Below, piece by piece: positions 6,848 through 18,016 of a stretch of DNA of 64,000 nt; position 1 is the first letter of the stretch; each line of letters begins with the position of its first letter. The DNA comes from Robiginitalea sp. SC105 (GTDB lineage Bacteria > Bacteroidota > Bacteroidia > Flavobacteriales > Flavobacteriaceae). The position numbers and the translations under genes were made by a program. The notes beneath the pieces were generated by a model. The model was given only the letters and a program-made list of their open reading frames with translations, ran no database searches and was not told where the DNA came from. The stretch is from contig NZ_JACLZF010000002.1 in the NCBI RefSeq assembly GCF_014243345.1, positions 1,054,001-1,118,000 of the forward strand, read 5' to 3'.

Positions 6848-6922
6848 ATGAACCGCATAAAACGCATTGATTGCTCTGCCAAATCCAACACCGACATATT
6901 GCCCGTTAAAATGGGAGCCTAG
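6848..6922 (+). CDS. Possible 24-residue leader peptide before the hybrid sensor
   Basis: An ATG preceded by AAGG opens a 24-codon frame (MNRIKRIDCSAK...KMGA) whose TAG stop ends one base before the TTG codon at 6924, the preferred start of the hybrid sensor. The arrangement TAG-G-TTG would allow translational coupling. No homology is recognised and the ORF may be fortuitous. Confidence 0.25.
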   Translation: MNRIKRIDCSAKSNTDILPVKMGA

Positions 6923-6923
6923 G

Positions 6924-9900
6924 TTGCCCCGAATAGCCTCCTGGTATGATGGAACCCGCCTTTCATTCCTGCTGAAGGTCTTGCTTTTTATAATCCCTTT
7001 TTTCTCCTTCTCCCAAAACCAGAATAGCAGCTTTAAAAAAGTTTCGGTCGAAATAGATCAGGTATCCTATGACTACAATATCATATCCATCGCACAGGAC
7101 CACCGGGGATATTTGTGGATGACAACTGGGAATGGCCTACTTAAATACGATGGGTATGGGTTTGAAAGATTCCGGAATATCCCGGGGGATACAACCTCGT
7201 TGAATGACAACAGGACCGAATCGCTCTTTGTGGACCATATCGGGGATATTTGGATCGGGACCGCGACTGGTCTCAGTCGCTACAACCCGGGATGTGATTG
7301 TTTTTACCAGTACCCATCGCGAGAGGATAATCCCACTCCCTCCGGGTTTATTACATCAATGTCCGAAGATGCATCCCAAAACCTGTGGGTTGGTATGCAG
7401 GAGGGCGGACTGTACCGGTACGAACGTGCAAGCGATCGCTTCACCCGATTTCTGGATGATCCTGCCCATTCGAATTCGCTTATCGGAGAGATTGTGCGGG
7501 TTGTATTGGCGGATAGCCAAAACAAAATCTGGATAGGGACAGGTTATGGTCCCTCCGAAAACGGTGCTGGCCTTTTTCGATTCGACCCCATAACCGGATC
7601 CATATCCCGGTTTATCCACCAACCGGATAATCCAAACAGTCTCATCGACAACCGGGTGAGTGCACTTATGGAGGATCGGCAGGGTCGCATTTGGGTCGGG
7701 ACATATCAAAATGGATTGCACCTTTACGACCCTGCACGGCAGGAATTCATCCGGATGAAGAGCGATGGCGGCAAACCCGGTCGATATTATCCGCCTCCGG
7801 GGCTAAAGGCCTGGGAACTCCCTCCTTTTATATCCTTTCTTTATGAGGATCAAAAAGGTGGTTTTTGGATCGGCACTTGTGGTGGTGGCATTAACTATTT
7901 TGACCCCGGCACGGATAAGGTGCGCTATTTCGCCCACAACCCTGCAGAAGCGAACGGCATATCCAATGATAAACTCTGGTCATTTTTTGAAGATAAATCC
8001 GGCCAGTACTGGCTGGGCACCCTGGCCCAGGGCGGCCTGCACAAAATGGATCCGTTAGAATCGAAAATCACCCGGTATGCCGAAACCAATAATATGCATA
8101 TTTCAGGCATACAGGAATGTGGCGCACTGCCTGGAAAACTTCTTTTGGGAACGATTTATCACGGGCTACGGCAATTGGATACGCAAACCGGTGAAATACT
8201 GCCTGTTTACGAAAATGAACTAACACATAGTGGATTAAGAGAAAGTCCGGTATTTGATATCTATGAAGACTCGAAAGGGCTGTTGTGGTTAGGGTTTATT
8301 TCGGAGCACCCTGAGGATTCCGGTACGTCTTCAAAAAACCGGGGGCCCGGAGGATTGGCCAGCCTGGATCCGAAAACAGGTAAACTGGTTCGACATTCGT
8401 TTCCAACGGATGGTACTCCTGGCACAGCCGGCACATCGGTTTACCGCATTTGTGAGGATCGGTATGGCTATTTATGGCTTGGGGCGGGCAAGTACGGACT
8501 TTTCGGTTTTGACAAAGCTACCGGGGTTAGTAAACGGCATACCTTACCGGCCGTTAACGGGCAGACGAGCGCCGAAGTCTATTTGATCGAAACGGATTCA
8601 CACGGGACACTCTGGGTTGGGGATCAGACGGGAGAAGGAACGTTATTTCGATACAATAAGGAGCATGATAGTTTTGAAACCTTCCTGGAAGGATACCAGG
8701 CCATAAGTTTTTACGAGGATAGCTCAGGTTGGTATTGGGTAGGCACGGAAGACAAGGGCGTACTTCGCTTTAACCCTGACAAAAGCAGTTTTCATCAATA
8801 CACAATGGTTGATGGGTTGCCAAGCAATAGGGTAACCGGGATACTCGAAGGCCCGCCAGGCACGTACTGGCTGTCCACCGCTCAGGGACTCTCCCGGTTT
8901 GATGCGGAGTCTGCCAGGTTTACCTCTAAAGGATTACCCAGTCACCGGTTTGATAAGGCCACCCTTTCAGCCAGCAATGGCCAGCTCTATTTCGGGGGCA
9001 GTAGTGTCCTGTTTGCTATCGATCCCGAGAAGGCAAATGGTAACCAGGTTCCTCCGGAACTTCAAATTGGCGTTATAAGGGTTTCCGGCGAACCCTATGT
9101 ATTGGATAATGGAAACCACGGCGATTCTGAGAGCATCATCCTGGCCCATTCGCAGAATGATATAACGTTTGAATACGTCGGCCTGCATTTCAGCAATCCT
9201 GCCAGGAATCAATACCGGTATCGGTTAGAACCATTTGACCCGGAGTGGATTGAAGCCGGGACGCAACGGGTGGCGCAGTACACGAATATCGAACCGGGAA
9301 CCTATACATTTCGGGTAATCGCATCGAATGATAACGGGGTCTGGAATGAAGAAGGGGCTTCTGTGGGCTTTGTAATCCGGAAGGCGTGGTGGGCCCGGTG
9401 GTGGGCTTATCTCCTGTATGGGACGTTACTTTGTTTGCTCGTATATAGCATTTACAGGTTCCAACTCTCCAAAAAACTGGCTTTGGCGGAAAGCAATAGG
9501 CAAAAACAAATCAATCGATTTAAAAGCAACCTGTATACCAACATTTCACATGAATTCAGGACGCCCCTGACCGTCATTTTAGGGATGACGGATTCACTGG
9601 AGAATGAACTCGGGAATAATAAATCACAACCCGCGGAGGATGCAGTCCGTTTAATCCGGAGAAACGGCCAGCGTCTGCTGACGCTCGTTAATGAAGTACT
9701 TGAGCTGACGAAACTGGAAAGCGGCCATTTAAGGGCAAACTATGTGCAAATCAAGGTAATTCCCTTTATCAGGTATTTGAGTGAGAGTTTTGCTTCCTAC
9801 GCCCGCAAAAAGAGCATCCAGCTCAGGATAAATGCTGAAATTGACGACTTATCCATGGATGTGGACACCCAGAAATTGTCCGCCATCCTCTCAAACCTCC

Positions 9901-11057
9901 TCTCCAATGCCATAAAATTTACGCCCCCGCACGGAGCTATCGAATTGCAGCTTCAAAGTGAAAAGGGAAGGTTTTTGGAAATAAAGGTTCACGATACCGG
10001 ATCAGGTATAGCCGAGGAGGATATACCCCATATATTCGACCGGTTTTACCAGGCAGGTTCTGCGACTACTAAAAAACTTGAGGGTACGGGTATCGGACTG
10101 GCATTAACCAAAGAATTAGTGACCGGGCTCGGAGGCAATATTACTGCGACCAGCAACCCGGGCAAGGGCAGTGTGTTTACGGTTCGGCTACCCATTACCC
10201 GGAATGCCCCAACCGCATGCCCGGATGCCCTGAACATGGTTTTGGCGGACCCCACAGGCCCCGATGATCTACAGGAAGCAGGAAAAGTAGTATCTGCCGG
10301 GCATCCGGAACAACCCTTAATCCTGATCATCGAAGACAACCAGGATGTGGCGCACTATACTATCCAATGCCTGTCCAATGCATATCGGACACTGTATGCC
10401 AGGAATGGGGCAACCGGCCTGGAATTAGCCTTTGAACACATACCGGATATCGTCATTACGGACGTGATGATGCCCGGCAAGGACGGGTTTGAGGTCTGCA
10501 AGGCGCTAAAAAAGGACGAACTGACCGATCATATCCCTATTATCATGCTCACTGCAAAGGCAACCCAGAAAGACCGGATTTTCGGACTTTCATATGGTGC
10601 TGATGCCTATTTGTCAAAGCCCTTCAATAAAGCTGAACTGCTGACCCGTATCGAACAATTGATCCGGGTGCGCCGGAAATTGATCCGTAAATTTCAGTTC
10701 ACGGGATTTGCCAAGCTGGTTGAAAGCCGTAAAAAGGATACTGAGTCCACCTTTATCCAAAAAGCTGTTGCGCTCATCTATGAGAATATTTCGGATGATT
10801 CCTTCGGCCCTTCGGAACTCGCTTCCGGATTGCTCATCAGTGAATCGCAACTCTATCGAAAACTAAAAGCACTCAGCGGTAAATCCACTGCAGTATTCAT
10901 TCGGCACGTGCGCCTGCAGGAAGCAAAAAACCTTATAGAATCCACAGATTTAACCGTTTCTGAAATCGCCTATGAGGTCGGCTTTAAAAACCTGTCCTGG
11001 TTTAGCCGCATTTTCAAGCAGGAACTGGGTTCTTCCCCCTCTGCCATCCGCAAATAA
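6924..11057 (+). CDS. Hybrid two-component system protein (propeller sensor, kinase, receiver, AraC output)
   Basis: About 1377 residues with the full HTCS architecture. A signal segment ('FLLKVLLFIIPFFSFSQ') leads to two-component-regulator propeller repeats ('GYLWMTTGNGLLKYDG', 'DIWIGTATGLSRY' and similar) over about 700 residues, then a Y_Y_Y domain. A transmembrane helix near 'WWAYLLYGTLLCLLVYSIYRF' follows. Next come HisKA 'ISHEFRTPLTVILG', HATPase ('LSNAIKFTPP', 'DTGSGI', 'GTGIGLALTKELV'), a receiver with 'DIVITDVMMPGKDG' and 'YLSKPF', and a C-terminal AraC-type helix-turn-helix. Such proteins sense periplasmic ligands, often glycans, and switch on adjacent genes; here the neighbours are two lipoproteins, not SusC/SusD. 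No in-frame ATG lies near the 5' end. TTG at 6924 gives a compact signal peptide; TTG at 6867 is the alternative. Confidence 0.93.
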   Translation: MPRIASWYDGTRLSFLLKVLLFIIPFFSFSQNQNSSFKKVSVEIDQVSYDYNIISIAQDHRGYLWMTTGNGLLKYDGYGFERFRNIPGDTTSLNDNRTESLFVDHIGDIWIGTATGLSRYNPGCDCFYQYPSREDNPTPSGFITSMSEDASQNLWVGMQEGGLYRYERASDRFTRFLDDPAHSNSLIGEIVRVVLADSQNKIWIGTGYGPSENGAGLFRFDPITGSISRFIHQPDNPNSLIDNRVSALMEDRQGRIWVGTYQNGLHLYDPARQEFIRMKSDGGKPGRYYPPPGLKAWELPPFISFLYEDQKGGFWIGTCGGGINYFDPGTDKVRYFAHNPAEANGISNDKLWSFFEDKSGQYWLGTLAQGGLHKMDPLESKITRYAETNNMHISGIQECGALPGKLLLGTIYHGLRQLDTQTGEILPVYENELTHSGLRESPVFDIYEDSKGLLWLGFISEHPEDSGTSSKNRGPGGLASLDPKTGKLVRHSFPTDGTPGTAGTSVYRICEDRYGYLWLGAGKYGLFGFDKATGVSKRHTLPAVNGQTSAEVYLIETDSHGTLWVGDQTGEGTLFRYNKEHDSFETFLEGYQAISFYEDSSGWYWVGTEDKGVLRFNPDKSSFHQYTMVDGLPSNRVTGILEGPPGTYWLSTAQGLSRFDAESARFTSKGLPSHRFDKATLSASNGQLYFGGSSVLFAIDPEKANGNQVPPELQIGVIRVSGEPYVLDNGNHGDSESIILAHSQNDITFEYVGLHFSNPARNQYRYRLEPFDPEWIEAGTQRVAQYTNIEPGTYTFRVIASNDNGVWNEEGASVGFVIRKAWWARWWAYLLYGTLLCLLVYSIYRFQLSKKLALAESNRQKQINRFKSNLYTNISHEFRTPLTVILGMTDSLENELGNNKSQPAEDAVRLIRRNGQRLLTLVNEVLELTKLESGHLRANYVQIKVIPFIRYLSESFASYARKKSIQLRINAEIDDLSMDVDTQKLSAILSNLLSNAIKFTPPHGAIELQLQSEKGRFLEIKVHDTGSGIAEEDIPHIFDRFYQAGSATTKKLEGTGIGLALTKELVTGLGGNITATSNPGKGSVFTVRLPITRNAPTACPDALNMVLADPTGPDDLQEAGKVVSAGHPEQPLILIIEDNQDVAHYTIQCLSNAYRTLYARNGATGLELAFEHIPDIVITDVMMPGKDGFEVCKALKKDELTDHIPIIMLTAKATQKDRIFGLSYGADAYLSKPFNKAELLTRIEQLIRVRRKLIRKFQFTGFAKLVESRKKDTESTFIQKAVALIYENISDDSFGPSELASGLLISESQLYRKLKALSGKSTAVFIRHVRLQEAKNLIESTDLTVSEIAYEVGFKNLSWFSRIFKQELGSSPSAIRK

Positions 11058-13628: not shown

Positions 13629-14069
13629 TCATAAGATCGATGAGAGCGCCAGACTCATAAAATCCTCCACCTGGCTTTCAGCCTGAACTGGGTCTGAATA
13701 TTCCAGGAAGCCCATGATCATGGGGTCGGCTCCAATATTCTGGAAATCGCGGATCACTTCAGTATATTCCTGGAGTTGCTGATCCACTGAGTCCCCTCTG
13801 TCAAAAACCAGGAGCGAAATCGACCCGTTGGAAGACCGGGTAAGCGCCAAACCGCCGGAGAGGCAGAATAATTTAAAGCTTTTTTTGATGATCCTGAAGG
13901 GTTTCCGTTCGTAGGGTTCCAGGCCAAAAACACTTAGTTTAACCCCTTCCGCCTCATAGATCACAGGATCCAGAGGGTCTGCATCAGCGTCCAAACCGGA
14001 AAGATCGTCCAATCGCGTTTGCTCCCATCTTTCAAAATCACCTTCCCGGTTCAATTCAACACACTTCAT
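13629..14069 (-). CDS. Unknown cytoplasmic protein; possible P-loop-less small-GTPase-like fold
   Basis: The 146-residue protein (ATG at 14069; a TTG at 14105 is in frame) has no signal peptide or membrane segment and is acidic. I do not recognise its family. The order 'EGVKLSVFGLEPYER', then 'SISLLVFDRGDSVDQQLQEY', then 'DPMIMGFLEYSD' loosely recalls the G3, RGx-strand and G4 regions of Ras/MglA-type GTPases. There is no Walker A motif, so any resemblance is to an inactive relative; this is inference only. It is the last gene of a probable three-gene operon with the lone receiver (gap 87 bp) and the DUF7793-like protein. Confidence 0.6.
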   Translation of the reverse strand: MKCVELNREGDFERWEQTRLDDLSGLDADADPLDPVIYEAEGVKLSVFGLEPYERKPFRIIKKSFKLFCLSGGLALTRSSNGSISLLVFDRGDSVDQQLQEYTEVIRDFQNIGADPMIMGFLEYSDPVQAESQVEDFMSLALSSIL

Positions 14070-14156
14070 TTTTTGATAATTAACCTGTTCATTTTTAGGT
14101 TTCAACTTCGGGGGAACGATATTTTTTATTGTAACGGGTGCCCGGAGCGACCCGCT

Positions 14157-14579
14157 TTATTTTAGTTCCGGTACGGCCTCCAAAACGATTTTACGCAGCT
14201 TTTCCGGCGTAAAGGGTTTGCTGATAAACCCGTCGCAGGCCGGGTGGTTCTCCGCACTCGCCATAAGGTTGGGGTCTGTGGCGTAGGAAAGCATAAATAC
14301 CTTGGTGCCAATGGTCGCACTGTCCTTCCAGGCCGCGAAGGCATCCAGAAATTCAATCCCGTTCATTTCGGGCATATCACTGTCTACCAGGATAAAATTT
14401 GGTACAAACCAGTGAGATGAGTGGGAGGAGGCAGGTTTCGAGGAGTCCAAAAAGGCGAGCGCCATACCAGCCCTTATAAAAGTGAGGATTTCGGAATCCG
14501 GTAATTCCCGTTCGATGCATTTTTGGTGGATATACAAATCCATTTCACTGTCATCGATCAATACAAAATTTGCGCTCAT
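14157..14579 (-). CDS. Stand-alone response-regulator receiver domain protein
   Basis: This 140-residue protein is a single REC domain. It has the acidic pair at Asp9-Asp10 ('LIDDSEMD'), phosphoacceptor Asp66 in 'FILVDSDMPEMNG' and Lys121 in 'FISKPF', with 'FMLSYATD' carrying the Ser/Thr switch region. There is no output domain, so it probably acts by protein contact in a phosphorelay, like the RcpA/CheY-type lone receivers common in flavobacteria. It lies 29 bp downstream of the DUF7793-like gene and upstream of the unknown 146-residue protein, in the same direction. No cognate histidine kinase is adjacent. Confidence 0.92.
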   Translation of the reverse strand: MSANFVLIDDSEMDLYIHQKCIERELPDSEILTFIRAGMALAFLDSSKPASSHSSHWFVPNFILVDSDMPEMNGIEFLDAFAAWKDSATIGTKVFMLSYATDPNLMASAENHPACDGFISKPFTPEKLRKIVLEAVPELK

Positions 14580-14608: not shown

Positions 14609-14998
14609 TCATATGGCCAGGGTATGGGATCGGATGAATTTTTCTGCCGACGGCACGTCTTTGAAGATGGCAAAGGGGATGTCGTTCGGATAGATTCTTT
14701 TGAACGCCCGCACCAAAAGTTCGATGGCGAGGGTATTTACCACATAGGCCTCACAGATCGCGATGTGGCCCTGACTGCTCTTGCTGGCCAGCAGTTTGGC
14801 AGCCTCTGTCGAAAAGGTGCCCCTTGCGCTCCTCAGGTCGATTAGCAAGGGCATGGGGGAACCATTGGACAGTGAAATCACTTTATCCAGGTATCGCCGG
14901 GCCGTCCTGACATTTAAGAAACAGGTGCCGGGCCCCTGGTTGAAAGTGCAGTACAGGATGCTGTTATCCCGAATTGAAAAGGTGGTTTGATCCTGCAT
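14609..14998 (-). CDS. DUF7793 / STAS-SEC14-like protein
   Basis: The 129-residue protein (ATG at 14998, which matches the family start; ATG at 15073 would add 25 residues) resembles the flavobacterial DUF7793 family of STAS/SpoIIAA-like folds. The pattern is beta strands 'NSILYCTFNQGP', helix 'TARRYLDKVISLS', strand 'MPLLIDLRSARG', helix 'STEAAKLLAS', then 'AICEAYVVNTLAIELLVRAFKRI' and 'PFAIFKDVPSAEKFI'. Proteins of this kind lie beside receivers and kinases, but their biochemical role is not established. It is the first gene of the probable operon downstream of a sigma-54-like promoter. Confidence 0.75.
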   Translation of the reverse strand: MQDQTTFSIRDNSILYCTFNQGPGTCFLNVRTARRYLDKVISLSNGSPMPLLIDLRSARGTFSTEAAKLLASKSSQGHIAICEAYVVNTLAIELLVRAFKRIYPNDIPFAIFKDVPSAEKFIRSHTLAI

Positions 14999-15090
14999 GG
15001 ATCTGTTTATAATGGTCAGTCCGGGTGAAACCTTATGCCCGCCAGGCTTTCTGGAGGCCTTATTAGTAAGCATTCATTCCAAAATGTTTA

Positions 15091-15108
15091 ACCAAGGGAT
15101 ATGCCAAA
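15091..15108 (-). promoter_or_regulatory. Sigma-54-like -24/-12 promoter of the DUF7793-receiver operon
   Basis: On the minus strand TTTGGCATATCCCTTGGT fits the sigma-54 pattern YTGGCAy-N5-TTGC: GG at 15105-15104, ten bases, then GG where GC is expected (15093-15092). Only that -12 base departs from the core. It would start transcription near 15080. The adjacent gene codes for a sigma-54 activator, and two inverted repeats lie 90-150 bp upstream. Confidence 0.45.
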
Positions 15109-15197
15109 CTCCTGTTTAGATCAGAAGAGTATTTGTAAAAAACAGGTAATCAATGCATTAGGAGGTTTGGGGGGAGATTGCACTTCGACTTGCATCA

Positions 15198-15209
15198 ACG
15201 GAATACCGT
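15198..15209. promoter_or_regulatory. Inverted-repeat operator copy 1 (ACGG-N4-CCGT)
   Basis: ACGGAATACCGT, identical to the copy at 15238-15249 and 40 bp from it. It is centred about 124 bp upstream of the predicted sigma-54 start site, a usual distance for an enhancer of a bacterial enhancer-binding protein. Confidence 0.5.
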
Positions 15210-15235
15210 CACAAAAATAAAGTGAGATCATTTTT

Positions 15236-15251
15236 CCACGGAATACCGTGG
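15236..15251. promoter_or_regulatory. Inverted-repeat operator copy 2 (CCACGG-N4-CCGTGG)
   Basis: CCACGGAATACCGTGG contains the same 12-mer as copy 1 in the same orientation, with two more paired bases each side. Centre about -164 from the predicted start. It lies just after the stop codon of the activator gene. A weak terminator is an alternative reading, but no T run follows on the minus strand. Confidence 0.5.
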
Positions 15252-15259
15252 GTTTTATG

Positions 15260-18016
15260 TTATTTCCTGATACCCAGTTTCTTCATCTTATCGCGAAGCG
15301 TACTGGGTTTCAGGTCCAGCAATTCGGAGGCGCTGTTGTGCCCGGAAATCTTCCAGTCGCATTTCTCCAGCACCTGAATGATGTGATTGCGCTGTATGGA
15401 TTCCAGGGATAAATTATTGGAACGGATCGAAACCCTTGAATTCGGACCCTCCGATTCAAAGCCCGGGATGGTAAGGGTTTCCCCGTTTGACAAAATGGAG
15501 GCCCGTTCGATCAGGTTCTCCAGTTCGCGGATGTTTCCCGGCCAGCTGTAACCTTTCAGTTTTTCCATGGCATGGTCGGAAACGAATTGGATGTTCTTGT
15601 TGTATTCCTTGTTGAACTTGTCCACAAAATGTTCGACGAGGATGGGAATATCCTCCCTGCGTTCCCGTAATGGGGGGACTTCAATCGGGAAAACATTGAG
15701 CCGGAAATACAGGTCTTCCCGGAAATTTTTCCTTTCAATCTCAGCCTTTAGGTTCCGGTTTGTTGCGGCGATAACGCGTACGTCCAGCTTTTTAGGCTGC
15801 CCGGCGCCGACCATTTCTATTTCGCCCTCCTGCAGGAACCTCAGGATCTTGGGTTGCATTTCCACGGGCAGTTCCCCGATTTCGTCCAGGAAAAGCGTTC
15901 CGCCATCAGCCAGCTCGAATTTGCCAACCTTATTGCTGATCGCCCCGGTGAAGGATCCCTTCCTGTGACCGAATAATTCGCTTTCCAGCAATTCCCGGGG
16001 GATAGCCGAGCAATTGACCTTGATCAGCGGCTTGTTGTTCCTGATGCTCAGGTTGTGGATGGCACGCGCCAGCAGCTCCTTTCCGGTACCGGTCTCGCCC
16101 TGCAGTAAGACGGTGGCATGTGTTGCAGCCACTTTTTCCACCTCCGAAAGCACATTGCTGAATGCGGCGCTTCCGTAGACCATTTCCTCAAAATTGAAAA
16201 CGAGATCCAGCTCGTTCCTCAGGTAGATGTTCTCCTGTTCCAGTTTATTGCGCAGGGTAATTAGTTCCGCGTTGGCTAAGGACAGCTCCCTGTTCGACTC
16301 AATGATCAATTGCTCTGCCTTCTGGCGCTCCTGGCTTTCGATAATGAGGGAGACCACATTGGCAATGGAGGTGGCAAATTCCAGGTCATCTGCCGACCAG
16401 CGCCGGGTTTGGCTGCCTACATGTTCAAAACAAATGATCCCGTAATATCCCGTGGTACTGTGCACAAAAACATCCATCAGGGACCTGATGTTATGGGGGA
16501 TCAGGTAGGCCTCCGCAAATTGTTCGGTAACCGGGTTGTTCCTGGCGTCTTCAACTAGGACAGTCTGACTTTTTTCCAGGGCATCAAAATAATTGGGGTA
16601 TTCAGACCTGCTCAGTGAGGCTCCCTCCTGGTGGGTTCCGCTTTCCAGAATATACAGGTCCTCACAATGGATTTCCGTTTTATCCATGTTCAGTCGCCAA
16701 ACGCCCACCCGCCCGACGTCCAGGGTCTCCGCTGCGAGTTGGGTAATTTGTTTCAGGGAGGCTTTCAGCTCATTGCCGACCAGGCTTGCCAGTTTTAGGA
16801 TTACGTCCTTCTTTTTGGTCGACCTGACGGCAATTTCCTCCAGCATTTCCTGCGTGCGGACTTCTTCGGAAATGTCTTTCAGGGTGCCAAAGACGGCGAT
16901 CACAGCCCCGTTGTTGTCCTTAATATTCCCGGCCAGGAAGGTCGCCTGGAATTTATTCCCATTTTTCCGGGTAAACTCCATCGTATGGGGCTGCGCTTTT
17001 CCGCCTGCAACATCCTCTTTCGTTGTCAGGATCTTTTCGAAGTCTTCTGGTTTGGCCATGGGATACGGCATATCCATCTCCAGGATTTCTTCCCGGGTGT
17101 AGCCCAGCATCTCGCAGGCCGATTGGTTTACCATGGTGATACGGCCTTCGAGGTTCAGGATGATCAGCCCTTCCTGCATGGACATGACAAGCTTGTCGGT
17201 AAATTCCTTGGCCAGCTTCAGGTCCAGCTCCGCCTTTTTGCGCTGGGTGATGTCGCGTATGATCCCTATAAGGAATTTGTTGCCCCTGTCATCGACGAAC
17301 CTCGTCTTTTTAGTGGAAATTATCTTGGTTTCACTGCCCCGGACCGTAAGGGTTTCCTCATTCACATTTTCAACACCCGAAGAAATGACGGCCCGGTCTA
17401 TTTTTAAAAAGCTTTCCCTTTCCTCCGGGGAGACGTCTTCGGCCAGGGTTTTACCCAGGACACGGGAGCGCGCCAATCCGAAAAGGCTGCAAAAGGCGTC
17501 ATTAACCAACAGGAGGCGGCTGTTTTCGTCTTTTACGAAAATGGGGTCCCCGATATGGTTCAGAATATTCTCCAGGTATTTTTCATTCTGGATCAAAAGT
17601 TCCCCGGCCCTCTTTTCGGTAGGCAGGTCGTTGAGCATCCCTGCAAGATGCGTACAAAGCCCATCGGACCCGCAAAGGGGTATAAGGGTTGCCAGGGTGC
17701 GTTTTTCGCCGGATTCACCAGAGCCGCCTATTTCCCACCATACCGTTTTTATATGGCTGCTCGCCTCGGCACATTTTTCAAGGGCATGGCTCAGTGCGGG
17801 TTCCTCAATAAAATTCCGCACATCCCGATCGATCACCTCGGATTCGGTAACGCTTAGCTCCTCCAAAAAACGTTTGCTCGCGGCGACGCATGTATACCGG
17901 TTTTCAGGCCGGACCTCCAGGATAAACAGCTGTTGGTTTGTGGGCCCGATAAATTTATCGGCGAGCCCGAAGCTGAGGGTAAGTTCGTCTAGAAGTGTTT
18001 TCCGCGGTTTCTTCAC
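15260..18016 (-). CDS. PAS-GAF sigma-54-dependent transcriptional activator
   Basis: The 918-residue protein starts with GTG. The N-terminal 130 residues are a divergent PAS-like region. Two PAS/PAC domains follow ('FVKDENSRLLLVNDAFCSLFG', 'GLIILNLEGRITMVNQSACEML'), then a GAF domain (about 390-540) and a coiled coil. The AAA+ sigma-54 interaction domain has Walker A 'GETGTGKE' (near 640), loop 'GSFTGA' (GAFTGA with Ala to Ser), Walker B 'GGTLFLDEIGELP' and an arginine-finger region. A Fis-type helix-turn-helix ends the protein ('SASELLDLKPSTLRDKMKKLG'). There is no transmembrane segment, so the sensor is cytoplasmic. It likely activates sigma-54 promoters by ATP hydrolysis, probably including the operon 160 bp downstream. 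Confidence 0.93.
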   Translation of the reverse strand: MKKPRKTLLDELTLSFGLADKFIGPTNQQLFILEVRPENRYTCVAASKRFLEELSVTESEVIDRDVRNFIEEPALSHALEKCAEASSHIKTVWWEIGGSGESGEKRTLATLIPLCGSDGLCTHLAGMLNDLPTEKRAGELLIQNEKYLENILNHIGDPIFVKDENSRLLLVNDAFCSLFGLARSRVLGKTLAEDVSPEERESFLKIDRAVISSGVENVNEETLTVRGSETKIISTKKTRFVDDRGNKFLIGIIRDITQRKKAELDLKLAKEFTDKLVMSMQEGLIILNLEGRITMVNQSACEMLGYTREEILEMDMPYPMAKPEDFEKILTTKEDVAGGKAQPHTMEFTRKNGNKFQATFLAGNIKDNNGAVIAVFGTLKDISEEVRTQEMLEEIAVRSTKKKDVILKLASLVGNELKASLKQITQLAAETLDVGRVGVWRLNMDKTEIHCEDLYILESGTHQEGASLSRSEYPNYFDALEKSQTVLVEDARNNPVTEQFAEAYLIPHNIRSLMDVFVHSTTGYYGIICFEHVGSQTRRWSADDLEFATSIANVVSLIIESQERQKAEQLIIESNRELSLANAELITLRNKLEQENIYLRNELDLVFNFEEMVYGSAAFSNVLSEVEKVAATHATVLLQGETGTGKELLARAIHNLSIRNNKPLIKVNCSAIPRELLESELFGHRKGSFTGAISNKVGKFELADGGTLFLDEIGELPVEMQPKILRFLQEGEIEMVGAGQPKKLDVRVIAATNRNLKAEIERKNFREDLYFRLNVFPIEVPPLRERREDIPILVEHFVDKFNKEYNKNIQFVSDHAMEKLKGYSWPGNIRELENLIERASILSNGETLTIPGFESEGPNSRVSIRSNNLSLESIQRNHIIQVLEKCDWKISGHNSASELLDLKPSTLRDKMKKLGIRK

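Follow-up and report, generated by a model that had tools for sequence, protein, structure and literature searches.

The question raised by this locus is what switches on a three-gene operon that lies just downstream of a gene for a sigma-54 activator, and what part is played by a 12-bp sequence that occurs twice in the gap between them. The window, meaning the whole stretch of DNA that was analysed, comprises 64,000 nucleotides of Robiginitalea sp. SC105. The answer that we consider very probable, judged from the sequence and its relatives, is a dedicated sigma-54 circuit, in which the adjacent activator together with RpoN would drive the operon. The features on which this answer depends are as follows, in the order in which they are read on the minus strand.

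15260-18016, minus strand: sigma-54 enhancer-binding activator, PAS-PAS-GAF-AAA+ (Sigma54_activat)-lid-HTH_8 (Pfam)
15238-15249, minus strand: predicted distal enhancer palindrome, sense ACGGTATTCCGT, centre at about -163.5; 24 of 32 activator copies have the pair
15198-15209, minus strand: predicted proximal enhancer palindrome, sense ACGGTATTCCGT, centre at about -123.5, 40 bp from the distal one
15147-15160, read on the plus strand: predicted IHF-type bend site AATCAATGCATTA (WATCARNNNNTTR, nine of nine positions), within TAATGCATTGATTA and centred 48 bp before TGGCA
15091-15106, minus strand: predicted -24/-12 promoter element TGGCATATCCCTTGGT, with GG in place of GC at -12, assigned from conservation
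15080, minus strand: estimated transcription start, 12 nt past the -12 G
14609-14998, minus strand: operon gene 1, DUF7793 protein (Pfam); the reading frame is open from 15073, likely start 14998 (MQDQTT...)
14157-14579, minus strand: operon gene 2, single-domain response regulator receiver (Pfam Response_reg)
13629-14105, minus strand: operon gene 3, no Pfam match, likely start 14069

The sequence-only reading had called the upstream gene a sigma-54 activator with a Fis-type HTH, and Pfam agrees (PF00158, 235.9 bits; PF02954, 35.6 bits). The HTH region reads KPSTLRDKMKKL. The loop reads GSFTGA rather than GAFTGA, which is the common form at the loci compared: over 38 loci, GSFTGA is found in 30 and GAFTGA in five, with three unreadable (30 of 35 readable). 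The genome also encodes RpoN (PF04552, 176.7 bits) and two genes of the HU/IHF family. Sigma-54 activation domains are matched ten times in the genome, five of the matches being strong (at least 226 bits).

The 12-mer ACGGAATACCGT does occur twice, at 15198-15209 and 15238-15249, in identical orientation and with the claimed spacing of 40 bp. On the minus strand, which is the coding strand, both copies read ACGGTATTCCGT, and they begin 13 bp and 53 bp beyond the start of the activator stop codon. At up to two mismatches the window holds 14 matches to the 12-mer, a figure that includes the other-strand readings of both near-palindromes, against 4.12 ± 2.35 expected; none of 100 shuffles reaches 14. 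In the genome of 3,575,612 bp, the exact pattern ACGGNATNCCGT is found at seven places, and the full 12-mer accounts for two of them, both at this locus, so that it is not common across the genome, as the sequence-only reading needed. The combination of a site with a -24/-12 element likewise occurs once in the genome, here. With one mismatch allowed, ACGGNATNCCGT is found at 211 places, against 163 for a reversed control. The relaxed pattern is thus not rare, and the unusual part is the pair and its setting.

The setting is conserved. Matches to the activator at E ≤ 1e-100 are found in 36 of 199 family genomes, including its own, and the 3' flanks were taken from 30 of these (G022, G041, G043, G049, G104 and G169 were left out). 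The palindrome pair is present in 22 of the 30 flanks and absent in eight, whose activators align with that of the window over the AAA-HTH part alone, at 52-57% identity. The 30 flanks, the window among them, together with G002 of the same genus and a second copy in G142, make up a set of 32 copies. Two ACGG-N4-CCGT palindromes lie 39-42 bp apart just past the activator stop in 24 of the 32. These 24 score 17-20 out of 20 for the pair, whereas 4800 random controls (first-order Markov samples of matching dinucleotide make-up, not exact dinucleotide shuffles) reach at most 15 and the other eight copies at most 13. The split into 24 and eight was made after inspection of the flanks, and the eight were kept as controls.

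A set of 39 non-redundant copies bearing the pair was assembled by adding to the 24 a further 15 loci found by a perfect pair; L075, L076, L084, L093 and L097 were dropped beforehand as repeats of genomes already counted. Over the 39, the palindromes are 39 bp apart in eight, 40 in 19, 41 in eight and 42 in four. The distance from the second site to the TGG of the promoter element is 99-105 bp in 33 copies, 89-94 in four and 113 in two. The relatives are not independent of one another, and the p values given below therefore serve as a guide only.

A palindrome just behind a stop codon could also be a terminator. On such a reading the palindromes would mainly end the activator transcript, and the operon would have an ordinary promoter. 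Some relatives lend this a degree of support: in ten of the 39 copies (L040, L041, L044, L045, L046, L048, L051, L081, L087 and L106) the promoter-proximal palindrome tips a longer hairpin, extended by at least four pairs (G-T allowed) and accompanied by a T-rich tract, and in four of these there are 15-22 extra pairs. In those relatives the second palindrome may therefore double as the activator terminator. This does not apply to the window, where neither palindrome is followed by a T tract in the sense direction (the best is two T in eight, after the second) and where a terminator scan gives matches on the opposite strand only, of which one covers the distal palindrome. The first palindrome shows the hairpin extension less often (4/39). 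Furthermore, a terminator would be expected to keep its pairing, not the letters ACGG..CCGT or a fixed spacing of 39-42 bp between two copies. We thus regard termination as a most improbable main role, and return to the palindromes as predicted enhancer sites.

The promoter element had been described as sigma-54-like, on the minus strand, with one mismatch in its core. It is present, running from 15106 down to 15091, and the mismatch is GG for GC. The -24 part and the TTG are there; the C at -12 is not. Against the standard consensus TGGCACGNNNNTTGCW, the element TGGCATATCCCTTGGT has three mismatches, and a scan allowing up to two misses it, with nine matches in the window where 9.35 are expected. 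The case for the element consequently lies in its conservation; on its own it would not stand out.

That conservation has to be set against a further reading, that a housekeeping promoter of sigma-A type drives the operon and the TGGCA-TTG match is incidental. TTTG and ACATTTTG, properly spaced, do overlap the element in the window and match eight of ten positions. Sigma-A-like scores of at least 9 are found in 12 of 39 copies, compared with 102 of 780 mononucleotide shuffles (Fisher p 0.007), an excess that raises the standing of this reading a little. The excess is small, however; the score of the window itself is reached by 524 of 780 shuffles (67%), and the TTTG is itself part of a conserved TTTGGCA. 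The stronger evidence lies with the sigma-54 element. TGGCAY-N5-TTG is complete (9/9) in 22 of the 24 copies bearing the pair, as against none of the 4800 random controls, and its distance from the palindromes hardly varies. The two copies in G142 have promoters of eight and seven out of nine, scores hit exactly by 69 and 806 of the 4800 controls. A sigma-A promoter as the driver of the operon accordingly seems to us highly unlikely, and we keep to the -24/-12 element as the predicted promoter. It is worth adding that two copies without the pair (L027 and L028) have the full TGGCAY-N5-TTG, plus a palindrome close to the stop codon that has diverged, so the promoter and the pair are not strictly tied.

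The departure at -12 is usual for this class of promoter. A C follows the TTG in only six of the 39 copies and is missing in 33, whereas it is present in 19 of 30 elements upstream of groES in relatives (Fisher p 5e-5); in both sets the element was taken as the best match, so that the core letters are partly set by that choice, with the -12 C left unscored. The mismatch in the window thus belongs to the promoter class and is not a rule of RpoN in this lineage. The groES set comprises the 30 of 32 groES matches that had a locus (L108-L137), and all 30 have a -24/-12-like element upstream, with eight or nine of nine positions, a count made without a shuffle control. In a study of Flavobacterium psychrophilum, groES is listed with a sigma-54 (SM4) promoter (PMC9723704).

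From the element, the transcription start was recomputed as about 15080, with the palindromes centred at about -123.5 and -163.5; the earlier estimates of 15080, -124 and -164 are therefore retained. One earlier figure has to be changed, namely the start of the first operon gene at 15073. The probable start is 14998, since most of the aligned relatives begin near there and a start at 15073 would leave a leader of only about 7 nt.

Between the palindromes and the promoter there is a third predicted element. The consensus for IHF is WATCARN4TTR, and a perfect match on either strand between the second palindrome and the -24 is found in 15 of the 24 copies, as against 94 of the 4800 random controls; the Fisher p of about 8e-20 treats related sequences as if they were independent. 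Among the 24, the best match most often (14 copies) reads in the sense direction and lies 33-36 bp ahead of TGGCA; three copies, the window among them, have it on the other strand at 47-48 bp, one has it in the sense orientation at 46 bp, and the other six have it elsewhere. The predicted IHF-type site is an addition to the sequence-only reading, as are the breadth of conservation and the finding that the departure at -12 is usual.

In G002 the activator, the DUF7793 gene, the receiver and the third gene stand in the same order as in the window, with the DUF7793 protein 35% identical and the third protein 42%. Here the sites are GCGGTATGCCGT and ACGGAATACCGT, 40 bp apart, followed by TTTGGCACACTCCTTGGT. 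The one relative seen with the whole gene order has thus kept both the palindromes and the promoter element, which had been proposed as a check. Within the genus, four of ten genomes match the activator at 1e-80: G000 and G002 carry an orthologue with the sites, and the activators of G003 and G005 are distant ones that lack the pair. The distribution of the unit is patchy.

How specific is the pair for this activator? A strict form of the pair is found in 12 of the 199 family genomes, against none for a reversed control, and all 12 places adjoin the 3' end of the activator gene; the one in G142 belongs to its second activator copy. In the other ten family genomes bearing the pair, a mismatch or the spacing falls outside the strict pattern. 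Fourteen of the 199 genomes have a single site with a promoter 75-105 bp beyond it, as compared with two genomes for the reversed control, and 12 of the places are at this locus. The remaining candidates, in G093 and G153, were considered as targets in trans and rejected as chance matches, given that these genomes have no match to the activator and that the reversed control also gives two genomes.

A wider scan of genome contigs from 84,980 species, in which records near the genome of the window were possibly left out, gave 34 stretches with a stricter pair, 26 of them beside an activator of this type. Twenty of the 34 are from Bacteroidota, nearly all flavobacteria by name; Euzebyella marina and Maribacter arcticus are examples of species with the locus. 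Each of these adjoins an activator 3' end (present in part in L101 and L103), and 19 of the 20 also have a DUF7793 match. The eight stretches without an activator are six contigs from a spirochaete MAG, one Clostridia record and one Tannerellaceae record. In the spirochaete MAG (L078, L086, L088, L091, L092 and L099), ACGGAATTCCGT is contained in arrays of 21- or 42-bp repeats, with no adjoining activator.

The other six are gammaproteobacterial loci (L074, L077, L079, L082, L089 and L094), four of them named Woeseiaceae, where the pair lies beside a related activator that is 44-49% identical in its C-terminal part and has the HTH letters (K/R)PTTLADRI. These loci share with the window a pair of palindromes, here ACGGAATTCCGT at a spacing of 39 bp, and have a TGGCAY promoter element as well. 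Unlike in the window, the sites are placed ahead of the start of the activator gene, and the promoter points away from that gene; all six have 60 bp between the second site and TGG, the -12 reads TGC, and there is a weaker third palindrome midway. The IHF-type site is perfect in three of the six, in a gap of 48 bp, and in each of the three it is read on the other strand, which is also the case in the window. The idea that the gammaproteobacterial form has no IHF-type site, taken from one strand, was dropped, because a search on both strands gives these three perfect matches.

The letters of the HTH region vary with the site. All 24 copies bearing the pair have the HTH motif [KR]PSTLRD[RK][MI], although it should be said that these copies had been located by a looser form of that motif. 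Eleven activators with other letters have no pair: the eight pair-less family copies and L139, L140 and L141. Their HTH letters are DKTLFAKM, NAKTLFAKM, NPSTLDSRI, PPSTLRSKM, KPTTLESRI, PASTLRSKM, PATTLFSKM and PRTTLASKI. That the HTH type tracks the palindrome supports the adjacent activator as the probable binder, short of proof.

It could still be another of the sigma-54 activators of this genome that binds the palindromes, with the adjacent gene having no part in regulation. There are four further strong sigma-54 activation domains in the genome, and adjacency is not binding. However, the strict pair adjoins this activator in 12 of 12 genomes, the agreement between HTH type and site extends to the gammaproteobacteria, and another activator of the same genome (L141) differs in its HTH and lacks the pair. 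Regulation from elsewhere in the genome is hence the reading to which we give least credence, and the adjacent activator is taken as the probable regulator in what follows.

The operon was correctly read, by Pfam, as a DUF7793 gene, a receiver gene and a gene with no assigned family. For the DUF7793 protein, AlphaFold with a 30-row alignment gives a model with a mean pLDDT of 83.5 and a pTM of 0.79. Foldseek searches of the PDB with this model give as best matches the STAS/SpoIIAA-like structures 4xs5, 2q3l and RsbS (6jhk); three matches have E ≤ 0.001. The fold of these proteins matches the model with a TMq of 0.57-0.69 at a sequence identity of 10-18%, and the DUF7793 protein is thus predicted to have a STAS/SpoIIAA-like fold. 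A literature search on DUF7793 proteins found no paper. The structure model for the third protein has a mean pLDDT of 35.3 and is unusable; among the 21 loci searched, its one homologue is the protein at the same place in G002.

The DUF7793 gene comes next after the activator in all of the 21 loci analysed in detail (the window region and L035-L054). Within the same 21, a PAS-histidine-kinase-like protein is found in 15, a receiver in 16, and a protein related to the T9SS-tail or VGIGT-type protein in eight; the sequence of L044 ends too early for its operon content to be judged. Elsewhere, L026 and L101 have a PAS protein directly after the activator, without DUF7793 as the next gene, and L025 has no sense reading frame of 60 amino acids within about 1.5 kb. 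Downstream of the operon, L042, L046, L047, L052 and L053 encode a large T9SS-tail-like protein together with one of VGIGT type, which suggests a cell-surface output. Our guess is that the operon encodes a STAS/receiver relay, joined in most relatives by a histidine-kinase-like protein, that tunes or feeds back on the same signalling unit. A large hybrid two-component protein is encoded near the operon, at 6867-11057 on the opposite strand; inspection of its sequence by eye suggests a propeller-like sensor, a kinase, a receiver and an AraC-type HTH.

The sites, their geometry, the link to the activator clade, the presence of RpoN and the synteny have been established computationally. Given that the palindromes, the likely bend site and the promoter are kept at nearly equal spacing in many relatives, the regulator very probably turns on the operon. 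The earlier proposal to this effect is favoured by the gene order of G002 with its sites, and by the confinement of the 12-mer to this locus. Binding, bending, the transcript start and activation are steps that we infer, and they could proceed as follows. The sensor domains of the PAS-PAS-GAF activator would receive a signal, and the activator would assemble on the two ACGGTATTCCGT palindromes past its own stop, which are separated by some four helical turns and face about the same side of the helix. Polymerase carrying RpoN would be waiting at the -24/-12 element at 15106-15091. A bend made at 15147-15160 by a protein of IHF/HU type would bring enhancer and polymerase together, after which the activator would hydrolyse ATP to open the promoter around 15080. 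Transcription would yield the mRNA for the DUF7793 (STAS-like) protein, the receiver and the third protein.

A bolder hypothesis, which we put forward tentatively and think somewhat unlikely, is that this is a closed portable cassette. In such a cassette, the activator would have a single genomic target, the STAS-like/(kinase)/receiver operon would feed back on the activator, and the activator's 3' flank would serve as enhancer and, in some relatives, as terminator too. The 60-bp geometry of the gammaproteobacteria would then mean that enhancer, bend site and promoter had passed between phyla, and been stretched, as a single unit.

Searches of the open-licence literature did not find this circuit in print, and a search for the exact letters of the palindrome found no paper. 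To our knowledge, few sigma-54 activators of Bacteroidota have an assigned binding site. Here sequence alone links a predicted site to a clade of activators, to a target and to a geometry, and the arrangement is repeated in many genera. The locus therefore offers a system in which RpoN control in flavobacteria can be tested, and a way into the study of DUF7793 proteins. The two natural geometries, with about 100 bp or 60 bp from the second site to the promoter element, allow tests of spacing and bending in enhancer action.

Among known systems, one comparison is with nifH and NifA, an example of the proteobacterial promoters of the form enhancer-IHF-(-24/-12). The shared features are two upstream dyads, an IHF-type site between them and the promoter, TGGCAY, and an AAA+ activator with a Fis HTH. 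The present locus differs in the letters of its palindromes and in having its sites directly behind the activator's own stop, and its class differs in mostly lacking the C at -12 (6/39) and in belonging to the phylum Bacteroidota. FhlA-like proteins are GAF/PAS activators, which share with this activator a GAF sensor, a sigma-54 domain and a Fis HTH; the sensor set, the site and the target operon are different. Within the flavobacteria, the SM4 sigma-54 promoters of F. psychrophilum are -24/-12 promoters with mapped starts, of which remFG-sprCDBF was tested by mutation (PMC9723704); as far as the accessible part of that paper goes, it names no activator binding site for them. The class described here also differs at -12 from the groES promoters of its own relatives. 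Set beside these systems, the locus is well supported as a dedicated enhancer-binding-protein circuit before a STAS-receiver operon, a new member of a kind already known.
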